Positions 59,730-64,000 of a stretch of 64,000 nucleotides of DNA are shown here, one piece after another; positions within the stretch are counted from its first letter, which is position 1; each line of letters begins with the position of its first letter. The stretch comes from Celeribacter baekdonensis (GTDB lineage Bacteria > Pseudomonadota > Alphaproteobacteria > Rhodobacterales > Rhodobacteraceae), in NCBI RefSeq assembly GCF_003047105.1, contig NZ_CP028475.1, positions 1,674,001 to 1,738,000 on the forward strand, written 5' to 3'. A program made the translations under genes and the position numbers. The notes under the pieces were generated by a model, which was given only the letters and a program-made list of their open reading frames with translations, was not told the origin of the DNA and searched no databases.

Positions 59730-59837
59730 GGCGGCCCTTTCGCATTGACTCGGTCACACTATAGATTCACATAGGGCGAACACCATAACCCGCAACCGGG
59801 CGCTCCGTGGGCGCCAAACTGACGAGGAGTGCCAGAC

Positions 59838-61787
59838 ATGGCCCAGATTTCTCTCACCTTCCCCGATGGCACTGCACGCGACTTCGCAAAGGGCGTAACC
59901 CCTACCGAGGTCGCCGAAAGCATTGCGATCTCTCTCGCCAAAAAGGCGATTTCTGCGACCGTGAATGGCGCGCATTGGGACCTGCAATGGCCGATTGAGG
60001 CGGATGCCACGATCGCCATCAACACCATGTCGGACGATGCGCCTGCGTTGGAATTGATCCGTCACGATCTGGCTCATATCATGGCCCGCGCGGTTCAGGA
60101 GCTTTGGCCCGATGTCAAAGTCACCATCGGTCCGGTGATCAAGGATGGCTGGTATTACGACTTTGACCGCAAAGAGCCGTTTACCCCCGAAGATTTGGGC
60201 GCAATTGAAGCGAAGATGAAAGAGATCATCAACGCCCGTGACCCGGTGCGCACCGAAGTCTGGTCGCGCGATGAAGCCATCGCCTATTACAAAGAGCGCG
60301 GTGAAGAGTATAAGGTCGAGTTGGTCGGTATGATCCCCGACGACGGCCAACCGATCCGCATGTATTGGCATGGCGATTGGCAAGACCTGTGCCGTGGGCC
60401 CCATTTGCAAAACACCGGCCAAGTGCCAAACAATGGCTTTAAATTGATGTCCGTCGCCGGAGCCTATTGGCGCGGCGACAGTGACCGCGCAATGTTGCAG
60501 CGGATTTACGGCGTTGGCTTCAAGGACCCGAAGTCGCTCAAGGCCCATTTGACCATGTTGGAAGAGGCGGCCAAACGCGACCACCGTAAGCTGGGTCGCG
60601 AAATGGACCTGTTCCACATGCAAGAAGAGGCTCCGGGCCAGATTTTCTGGCATCCGAATGGCTGGAAAATCTACACCACGTTGCAAGATTACATGCGCCG
60701 CCAGCAAGAAGAAGATGGCTATGTCGAGGTCAACACGCCGCAGGTGGTGAACCGCAAGCTTTGGGAAGCGTCCGGTCACTGGGACAACTACCAAGACAAT
60801 ATGTTCATCGTCGAAGTGGACGAGGAGCACGCCCGCGAAAAAACGCTGAATGCGCTTAAGCCGATGAACTGCCCCTGCCACGTTCAGGTGTTCAACCAAG
60901 GTTTGAAATCCTACCGCGATCTGCCATTGCGCATGGCCGAATTCGGATCGTGTAACCGCTATGAACCGTCAGGTGCGCTGCACGGCATCATGCGGGTGCG
61001 TGGCTTTACCCAAGATGACGCGCATATTTTCTGTACCGATGAACAGGTCGAGGAAGAAACCAAGAAATTCGTCACCTTCTTGGCCAAAATCTATGCCGAT
61101 CTGGGCTTTGATCAGTGGAAGGTCAAATTGTCGACCCGTCCTGAAAAGCGCGTCGGCACCGAGGAAAGCTGGGACAAGGCCGAGGCGGATTTGGCCAACG
61201 GGATTCGGGCGGCGGGATACGAGTATGAAATCCAAGAGGGCGAAGGCGCCTTTTATGGTCCGAAACTGGAGTTCGTGCTGACCGATGCCATTGGCCGCGA
61301 TTGGCAATGTGGTACGTTGCAGATCGACCCCAACCTCCCTGAACGTCTGGACGCCAATTACATCGGCCAAGATGGGGCAAAACACCGTCCGGTGATGTTG
61401 CACCGTGCTGTTTTGGGTTCATTCGAACGCTTCATCGGCATCTTGATTGAATCTCATGCCGGCAAATTGCCGTTCTGGCTCGCGCCGCGTCAGGTTGTGG
61501 TCACCACGATTGTCTCCGAAGCCGATGGCTACGCCGATGAGGTCGTCGCCGCGCTCAAAGCCGCAGGTGTGCGTGCCGAGGCTGACACGCGCAACGAGAA
61601 GATCAACTACAAGGTCCGCGAACACAGCCTTGGCAAAGTGCCGGTGATTCTGGCCGTGGGCGCGCGCGAGATCGACGAAAAGACTGTCTCTGTGCGTCGT
61701 TTGGGCGAAAAACAGACCGCTGTGATGAGTTTGGACGACATCGTCGCTGAGCTAAAACTGGCCGCCTGCCCGCCTGACTTGAAATAA
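59838..61787 (+). CDS. thrS: Threonyl-tRNA synthetase
   Basis: This 649-residue class II synthetase has the TGS domain (about 1-60), the editing domain with [16 protein letters not shown], the catalytic core ([21 protein letters not shown]) and the anticodon-binding domain. The start is ATG 59838, 8 bp after GAGGAG; the GTG at 59829 lies in the ribosome binding site. A short hairpin (GGCGC/GCGCC at about 59798-59814) stands before the start. Confidence 0.97.
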
Positions 61788-61836: not shown

Positions 61837-62114
61837 GCGTGATCACCGTCCCCAACGTCAACGTGAGCAATGTTTCATCGGCCAATGTGCCTTCATGTCT
61901 CTGTTTTTATTCGGTTCACCCCAGACCTTCGGGTCAAAACGGCACCAGGTTCGCCCCCTTGGATCGCATTTCAACACACGTTTTCGTTTGTTTCACTGCC
62001 TGACAGGCGCGTCAGGACACACCCCCGTGACTGGCCTGTGAGCTGCCCCATCGGCCATATCTTGCTCACCGCCACTCACGGCGGAAACGCATGATCTCTA
62101 GGGAGACACACCCA

Positions 62115-62426
62115 ATGACCACACAAACAAAAACCCTCGCCCTCATCGGCGCTCTTGCCACCGCATTGTCCGCAACCGCCACCATGGCCTCCGCCGAAGG
62201 CGCGCAAGAAAAATGTTTCGGCGTTGCTCTTGCCGGTGAAAACGGCTGTCAGGCTGGCCCGGGCACGACCTGTGCAGGCACCTCGAAAGTCGATTTCCAA
62301 GGCAACGCCTGGACTTTGGTGCCCGAAGGCACCTGTCTGACGATGGAACTGCCGGCAATGATGGACGGCCATGCCCGTATGGGGTCGCTCGAAGCGCTGG
62401 AACGCGACCTGCCGATGGACAGCTAA
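62115..62426 (+). CDS. bufA: Bufferin-type metallophore precursor (DUF2282)
   Basis: This 103-residue exported protein has a signal peptide (1 to about 27, cut after ASA) and four cysteines, Cys34, Cys45, Cys53 and Cys74, in the DUF2282 layout [23 protein letters not shown] and VPEGTC. The family encodes RiPP copper-binding peptides (bufferins) whose cysteines are modified by MNIO enzymes. The C-terminal [15 protein letters not shown] tail is Met/His-rich, consistent with metal binding. ATG 62115 is chosen over 62091. It is followed by an attenuator and bufB. Confidence 0.88.
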
Positions 62427-62434
62427 ACAGCTTT

Positions 62435-62469
62435 GGGTCCGGTGCCGTCCAGTGCCGGACCCTCTTTTT
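62435..62469 (+). terminator. Terminator-like hairpin between bufA and bufB
   Basis: GGGTCCGG (62435-62442) pairs with CCGGACCC (62455-62462), 8 bp without mismatch, then TCTTTTT. It lies after the bufA stop and before bufB, so bufA may be made in excess of its modifying enzymes. Confidence 0.85.
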
Positions 62470-62496
62470 CAAACGCGAACCTTCGGGGGGGATAAG

Positions 62497-63393
62497 ATGT
62501 TGGACCACCATGATAGCCAAAGTGGCGGCCACAGTGGCGGCCACCACGACATCCGGCGTGACGCCCTGCCAAACGGCGCGGGCATCGGCTACAAACCTCA
62601 GCATTTTTCAAACCTGACATTGGGCAACACCCCGGTGGAATGGCTTGAAATCCATGCAGAAAATTACATGGGTGCAGGCGGGCGACCTCTTGCTCAACTG
62701 CGCGCCCTCTCCGATCTGTTCCCGATTTCCGTGCACGGTGTTGGCCTCTCAATCGGTGGCGAAGGACGGCTAGATCCCGACCATCTGGCTCGGCTCAAGC
62801 ACCTGATCGACTGGCTTCAACCGGCTCGGTTTTCCGAACATCTGGCTTGGTCCACCCATGGTGACGCCTTTTTCAACGACCTGCTGCCCCTGCCCTACAC
62901 CGAGGCCACATTGACCCGCGTCTGCGCCCATATTAACGAGCTGCAAGATCGGATCGGGCGGCAAATGTTGCTTGAAAACCCGTCTGCCTATTTGGCCTTT
63001 TCTGAAAGCACCTACGACGAAGTCGATTTCCTCCGCGAAATCGCCAAACGCACCGGTTGCGGGCTTTTGCTGGACGTCAACAACGTCTTTGTCTCCGCCT
63101 CTAATCTGGCCTTTGACCCCATCGCCTATATCGACGCTTTCGCTCATGACGCCGTGGGGGAAATCCACCTTGGCGGCCATGATCAAGACGCGGATGAGAC
63201 CGGCGCCCCGTTATTGATTGACAGCCATGGGCGCGAAGTGGCCGACCCGGTTTGGGCGCTTTATGCCCATACGTTGTCCGTCGGCGGTGCCAAACCAACC
63301 TTGATCGAATGGGACACCGATGTGCCCGAATGGGACGTTTTGGCCGCAGAGGCCGACCGTGCCGCCGCCCTGTTGCAAACGGTGCCTGCATGA
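62497..63393 (+). CDS. bufB: MNIO (DUF692) enzyme for bufferin modification
   Basis: This 298-residue enzyme of the DUF692 TIM-barrel family (multinuclear non-heme iron oxidases) has EIHAENYM (51-58), SVHGVGLSIGG (78-88), SEHLAWS (113-119), LLENPSAYLAF (158-168), LDVNNVFVSASN (192-203) and EIHLGGHDQD (222-231). Probable metal ligands lie among His80, Glu114, Glu160, Asp193, His224 and Glu271. The N-terminus carries an unusual His/Gly stretch (residues 4-17: HHDSQSGGHSGGHH). ATG 62497 follows a run of G. The bufC ATG overlaps its stop. Confidence 0.92.
   Translation: MLDHHDSQSGGHSGGHHDIRRDALPNGAGIGYKPQHFSNLTLGNTPVEWLEIHAENYMGAGGRPLAQLRALSDLFPISVHGVGLSIGGEGRLDPDHLARLKHLIDWLQPARFSEHLAWSTHGDAFFNDLLPLPYTEATLTRVCAHINELQDRIGRQMLLENPSAYLAFSESTYDEVDFLREIAKRTGCGLLLDVNNVFVSASNLAFDPIAYIDAFAHDAVGEIHLGGHDQDADETGAPLLIDSHGREVADPVWALYAHTLSVGGAKPTLIEWDTDVPEWDVLAAEADRAAALLQTVPA
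62521..62544 (+). repeat. Two tandem 12-bp repeats in the bufB start
   Basis: AGTGGCGGCCAC is present twice in tandem and encodes SGGHSGGH, part of the His-rich N-terminal extension. Confidence 0.95.
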
Positions 63394-64000
63394 CCCAATC
63401 CGCCTTCATCCACGCCGTGCTTAACCCAGACGCCCCTGTCCCGACGGGCCTCACCGATGCGTCAGGTCGCCCCGCATCTGCACGCTTTAATGTCTATCGC
63501 AACAACGTCGCGGTCAGTTTGAAAGAGGCCCTCTCGTCAGGGTTTCCAGCGATAAAATCTTTGCTCGGCACGGCGTTTTTTGACGCGATGACAGGGGTTT
63601 ATCTGCGCGCACACCCGCCAAAATCGCCCCGACTGGCACTCTACGGCGAGACGTTCCCCGATTTTCTGGCCGGATTTGACCCCCTGCGCCACCTCCCCTA
63701 TCTGCCCGATGTCGCCCGGCTCGAATACGCCCTGCGCCAAAGCTATCACGCCGCCGATACCACGGCGCTCACACCCGACGCCCTGCAAACCCCCGACGCG
63801 TTGATACGCCCGCTGCGGCTCGCCCCTTCGGTGTTTTGGATCGAAAGCGCCTATCCTGTAACCCAGATTCACGCCGCCGCTTTTGGTGGACCAAACCCCA
63901 CCGGCGGGGCCGAAACCGCCCTGGTCACCCGCGCCATCTTTGATCCGGTGGCGACGGGTTTTCCTCCCGGCACCAGTGCCGTTCTGATGGCTTTGAACGC
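63390..64000 (+). CDS. bufC: Bufferin partner protein BufC (DUF2063-like), truncated by window
   Basis: The ATG at 63390 overlaps the bufB stop (ATGA), and the frame is open to the window edge, 203 codons. The start MTQSAFIHAVLNPDAPVPTG, then SARFNVYRNNVAVSLKEALSSGFPAIKSLLG, matches the DUF2063 partner that binds the precursor for the MNIO enzyme. The end is not visible. Confidence 0.85.
   Translation, partial: MTQSAFIHAVLNPDAPVPTGLTDASGRPASARFNVYRNNVAVSLKEALSSGFPAIKSLLGTAFFDAMTGVYLRAHPPKSPRLALYGETFPDFLAGFDPLRHLPYLPDVARLEYALRQSYHAADTTALTPDALQTPDALIRPLRLAPSVFWIESAYPVTQIHAAAFGGPNPTGGAETALVTRAIFDPVATGFPPGTSAVLMALN

Follow-up and report, generated by a model that had tools for sequence, protein, structure and literature searches.

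A bufferin-1 operon in a Celeribacter-like Rhodobacteraceae chromosome, with a family-wide hairpin behind the precursor gene and a promoter element different from the SigF type

The window analyzed here (the whole stretch of DNA, 64,000 nucleotides) ends within a group of genes, bufA, bufB, and bufC, that are transcribed in the same direction. The following features were identified, in order of position:

62018..62041, forward strand: promoter-region element CAC-N5-CGTGA-N-TGGC-N-TGTGA (class B), a conserved pattern upstream of bufA
62115..62426, forward strand: bufA, 103 aa, DUF2282 bufferin-1 precursor
62435..62462, forward strand: intercistronic hairpin with an 11-bp stem and a 6-nt loop, followed by TCTTTTTC
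62497..63393, forward strand: bufB, 298 aa, MNIO maturase
63390..64000, forward strand, cut by the window end: bufC, DUF2063 partner protein

Within the window, overlap is confined to the ATGA at 63390-63393, which bufB and bufC share, as the first-pass annotation had noted; a gap of 70 nt lies between bufA and bufB. The whole bufC gene was found in the window's own genome (243 aa; L002:7390-8121), and its end would be at 64121. A DoxX gene (L002:8114-8653; PF07681, 3.3e-08), for which a look past position 64000 had been proposed, was indeed present beyond the window and overlaps the end of bufC; a frame of the ArsC family (2.3e-12) is located right after the DoxX gene, on the other strand. 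Upstream of the buf genes, a 652-aa frame (59829-61787) presumably encodes threonyl-tRNA synthetase. The own genome presented a single match to each of DUF2282, MNIO, and DUF2063, with no additional locus of any of the three kinds.

The small peptide had initially been proposed to belong to DUF2282, the enzyme to be a DUF692 MNIO, and the third protein to be DUF2063-like, and Pfam searches placed all three in these families. BufA matched DUF2282 (PF10048) at 7.1e-22 (77.6 bits, with a cut-off of 22.4), BufB matched MbnB_TglH_ChrH (DUF692; PF05114) at 1.9e-101, and BufC matched DUF2063 (PF09836) at 2.9e-26 (window part) and 4.6e-26 (whole protein); these scores are far over the curated cut-offs, and chance can therefore be excluded for the three family matches. 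BufB also scored 369.6 bits against the NCBIfam model of the bufferin maturase (NF050167, MNIO_BufB; cut-off 310), while the HvfB model remained below its cut-off for BufB (225.2 bits vs. 360), as did the HvfC model for the window part of BufC (48.4 bits vs. 142). Among solved structures, phmmer matched BufB to 3bww (7.9e-44), 8hci (9.1e-13), and MbnB 7dz9 (1.4e-10); we take 8hci to be TglH. The motifs HG (80), SEHL (113), LEN (159), LDVNN (192), HLGGHD (224), DSHG (242), and LIEWD (269) of BufB are mostly kept in its alignment to 3bww, and the iron ligands presumably fall among them.

BufA presents a hydrophobic N-terminus with a plausible MASA/EG cleavage site (judged by eye) and four cysteines, C34, C45, C53, and C74. 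The spacing of these cysteines was identical in 136 of 136 parsed family sequences, which represent 78 of the 79 sequences in a set of named relatives and all 58 in the set that contains the window (both sets are described below), under a parsing pattern in which the middle spacing was fixed and the other two were limited to a range. The last cysteine is followed by a tail of 29 residues with five Met and one His, previously described as an additional Met/His tail; the tail itself is present, but it is not peculiar to this precursor, as a tail of this type, with the motif RD[LIVM], was found in 78/78 parsed named relatives and in 48/58 sequences of the window-containing set. The number of tail Met residues ranges from 0 to 7 in the family, and a tail His is present in only one of the 78 named relatives and in seven of the 58 sequences of the other set, the window being among the seven; the idea that the tail represents a special metal site was rejected on these grounds. 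Two other loci (L015 and L027) encode BufA tails that extend 13 and 22 residues past RDLP, respectively, and the extension in L027 is rich in Met and acidic residues. One family genome contains, in a stretch of 10001 bases (L066), a tandem pair of bufA genes with nearly identical mature parts.

The buf operon is a common property of the family. Within the same family, 211 of 295 genomes contained DUF2282, as did 83 of 349 genomes sampled across the phylum, own family included; the window BufA used as a query gave matches in 279 of 394 genomes. The nearest named BufA among the best 80 of 583 was that of Celeribacter baekdonensis DSM 27375 (95%), although the closest records to the window's own genome may be omitted; the named relatives of BufA agree with the earlier placing of this DNA in the Rhodobacterales, and they are also the basis for taking the family to be Rhodobacteraceae. 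For the comparisons below, two sets of loci were used, both composed of best-matching loci and not of random draws, and probably sharing species, so that they are not independent. One set (58 loci) consists of the window plus loci from the best 30 of the 211 genomes with DUF2282 and the best 30 of the 279 genomes with matches to the BufA query, with two duplicates (L049 and L063) left out; the other (79 named loci) consists of the best 80 of 583 confirmed loci, minus one (L094) in which the motif found no bufA. Of these 79 named loci, 76 extended 2400 nt or more beyond bufA; in this subset, BufB was found downstream of bufA in 75, BufC in 72, BufD in 70, and all three in 66.

The operon is an ordinary bufferin-1 case, in which DoxX completes the known four-gene layout. 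The first-pass annotation had recognized a bufferin gene pattern, and the order bufABC followed by DoxX corresponds to the core of bufferin clusters (precursor, MNIO, DUF2063, and DoxX genes) as given in the available part of PMC12452194. The same order of DUF2282, DUF692, DUF2063, and DoxX genes is found in Caulobacter bufferin-1 (CC3254–CC3257, also CCNA_03363–03366), whose precursor CC3254 has 93 aa (PMC3511200, available part), as compared to 103 aa in the window. As thousands of bufferins have already been collected (PMC12452194, available part), the window operon adds one more example. The EGKCG captophorins oxazolin, fontiphorin, and gonophorin, which belong to the 5-thiooxazole class (PMC13097082, available part), share with the window operon an MNIO and a DUF2063-type partner; however, the window precursor is a DUF2282 protein, no EGKCG repeats were found in its sequence, and BufB and the window part of BufC fall under the HvfB and HvfC cut-offs, respectively.

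We are very confident that, taken as a whole, this locus in the chromosome of a Celeribacter-like member of the Rhodobacteraceae is best explained as a bufferin-1 operon with the four genes bufABCD, which would work as follows. BufA would be synthesized in the cytoplasm; BufB, together with its partner BufC, would turn the central C45 and C53 into 5-thiooxazoles; Sec would export the modified BufA; the outer pair, C34 and C74, would form a disulphide; and, under copper stress, periplasmic BufA would bind Cu(I), with the DoxX protein in a helper role. Modification, export, disulphide formation, and copper binding are carried over here from studied homologues: in Buf1, the central cysteines are modified and the outer two are in a disulphide (PMC12452194, available part), and the characterized enzymes of this group produce 5-thiooxazole, with products that generally bind Cu (PMC13097082, available part). 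A single transcript would span the buf genes, and the hairpin behind bufA would lift the precursor-to-enzyme ratio through 3′-end protection of the bufA segment, partial termination, or both; these last two steps are proposals of the present analysis.

The hairpin between bufA and bufB folds well on its own, with −21.7 kcal/mol for a 47-nt piece (z −4.63; reached by 0/200 shuffles), while the fold of the whole 73-nt stretch including the stop codon is not exceptional (z −1.58; 15/200 shuffles). A strong stem, defined by a score of at least 21 (GC 3, AU 2, GU 0.5) within the first 60 nt past the stop codon of bufA, was present in 54/58 loci (window included) and in 72/79 named loci. Such a stem was found in few of the control 60-nt stretches of the 58 loci, namely in two upstream of bufA, four within bufA, and three downstream (one of the 58 loci being too short for the downstream stretch), and the mean fraction of shuffles reaching the observed stem was 0.03. 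Elsewhere in the window and in 20 further family stretches, only 6/40 co-directional gaps of 40–130 nt presented such a stem, a count obtained with crude gene calling and after one bufA-bufB gap (L156) was removed from the raw 7/41. The hairpins of the family are alike in position and strength, and their sequences differ widely. Outside the family, a stem was found in 16 of the 54 loci with bufB next and in three of the eight without (62 loci in total, using 70 nt after the stop codon, which often reaches into bufB); these counts do not support the hairpin as a general trait of bufferin operons.

By analogy with the Rhodobacter puf operon (pufBA-pufLMX), the family hairpin suggests an mRNA-stability device that favors BufA, a reading put forward because most copies have no T-run. 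In both operons, which come from the same bacterial group, an in-operon hairpin lies behind the part that encodes the product required in larger amounts; the operons themselves differ, however, and any such role in buf is putative. Deletion of the puf hairpin changes the protein ratio (PMC10253847, available part), and operon decay in E. coli is also shaped by protective hairpins that have no uridine tract (PMC5927463, available part). A device of this kind may be a simple way for a single transcript to supply plenty of substrate but little enzyme, where the peptide works through its quantity. The words hairpin, terminator, and stem-loop are absent from the main text of PMC12452194, PMC13097082, and PMC12538549, which deal with clusters of this type, and hairpin and terminator are absent from the available part of PMC3511200; no paper on a buf hairpin was found by title or start of abstract in a search that leaves subscription journals mostly uncovered, so that novelty is unproven.

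Alternatively, the hairpin might be a leaky intrinsic terminator, at which many polymerases stop after bufA and some continue into bufBCD. The window copy fits this description, as its stem is followed by TCTTTTTC (6 T of 8) and it counts among the two terminator-like sites in the 3.3 kb scanned, a number below the 4.2 obtained in shuffles; this copy may therefore also terminate. Across the family, however, at least five T among the eight bases after the stem were found in only 8/58 and 8/79 copies, making termination unlikely as a shared function. Terminator was accordingly set aside as the general meaning of the hairpin, and leaky termination is, in our estimation, an unlikely account of it, if the strongest of the alternatives considered here.

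Upstream of bufA, the 58 loci fall into two main promoter classes. The pattern [CT]GT[GT]A.T[AG]G, a short form of the window's promoter element, was found in 32 loci, including the window, and GTAA[CA]-N15-18-CGAA in 13, where mononucleotide shuffles expect 0.6 and 0.2, respectively, with both patterns having been chosen on these same 58 loci. The two classes are mutually exclusive in this set, with no locus presenting both patterns and 13 presenting neither. Among the 79 named loci, 17 were SigF-like, 42 belonged to the second class, one presented both, and 19 none, based on a looser pattern and a crude anchor. The GTAA[CA]-N15-18-CGAA class fits the Caulobacter SigF-binding sequence, which is GTAACC-N16-CGAA (PMC3511200, available part). 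No SigF-type GTAACC-N16-CGAA element was found upstream of the window bufA by the pattern used. The 24-base pattern of the window element had one perfect site in the own genome and two sites with two mismatches (backwards control, 0); with a second pattern, only the bufA site was recovered (backwards control, 3), and neither search revealed a regulon of this element in that genome.

The distribution of NrsF, the anti-sigma factor that accompanies bufferin-1 control in Caulobacter, follows the same split; NrsF occurs with a sigma factor in Buf1 clusters but does not define them. NrsF was matched in 20/58 genomes at E 0.001 and in 19/58 over the cut-off, so that by the cut-off it is missing from 39/58. 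It was present in all 13 genomes of the SigF-like class (in one, G216, by a fragment), in four of the 13 genomes with neither promoter pattern, and in two of the 32 genomes of the second class, in both cases on a contig other than that of bufA; the other 30 second-class genomes were without it by the cut-off. The twentieth match, below the cut-off, belongs to a second-class genome. The own genome of the window presented no NrsF match. Among the sampled genomes that carry the peptide, the presumed copper peptide is thus commonly found without NrsF. Beyond the known operon, what is worth keeping is the hairpin together with the promoter split. Together, they point to a tentative reading that we judge somewhat more likely to fail than to hold, in which the Rhodobacteraceae buf hairpin would be under selection for structure and not sequence and would set a large excess of BufA over its maturase, as in puf for proteins of photosynthesis, and control would have moved from SigF/NrsF to another regulator reading CAC-N5-CGTGANTRG in most sampled loci, window included.

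The Caulobacter bufferin-1 operon differs from that of the window in this respect, since the window genome has no NrsF match and its bufA has no SigF-type element by the pattern used. In Caulobacter, expression of CCNA_03363–03366 rises with Cu, and growth of a sigF mutant in the presence of Cu is poor (PMC8224329, available part). As neither NrsF nor the same promoter element was found for the window, copper induction is not simply transferable from Caulobacter. The peptide might then serve another metal or stress in Celeribacter (e.g., Cd, Cr, or Au) and not copper; consistent with this, the Caulobacter SigF regulon, DUF2282 genes included, responds to chromate and cadmium (PMC3511200, available part). 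However, the products of the characterized enzyme group generally bind Cu (PMC13097082, available part), and the Caulobacter sigF mutant is Cu-sensitive, although its sensitivity profile to chromate and cadmium is similar (PMC8224329, available part). We consider a metal other than copper improbable.

Least probable of all, by a small step, is that the hairpins are unrelated, repeat-like palindrome insertions or an effect of base composition with no role in the operon, as stem sequences vary widely among loci, several loci of the Yoonia/Loktanella group have a palindrome in common, and covariation is weak, but the same place and strength are kept despite the differences in sequence, with stems in only 2, 4, and 3 of 58 control stretches and 6/40 other co-directional gaps. 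The covariation count was carried out on seven Yoonia/Loktanella-type loci, in which two pairs changed on both sides, a number reached by 107/500 shuffles, and 92.9% of cells were paired, a value reached by 23/500 shuffles. The common palindrome was observed in the Yoonia/Loktanella-like loci L075, L077, L081, L082, and L114; it is of the type GTAGGGTGGG...CCCACCCTAC or GTAAGGTGGG...CCCACCTTAC, and to us it resembles a repeat element.
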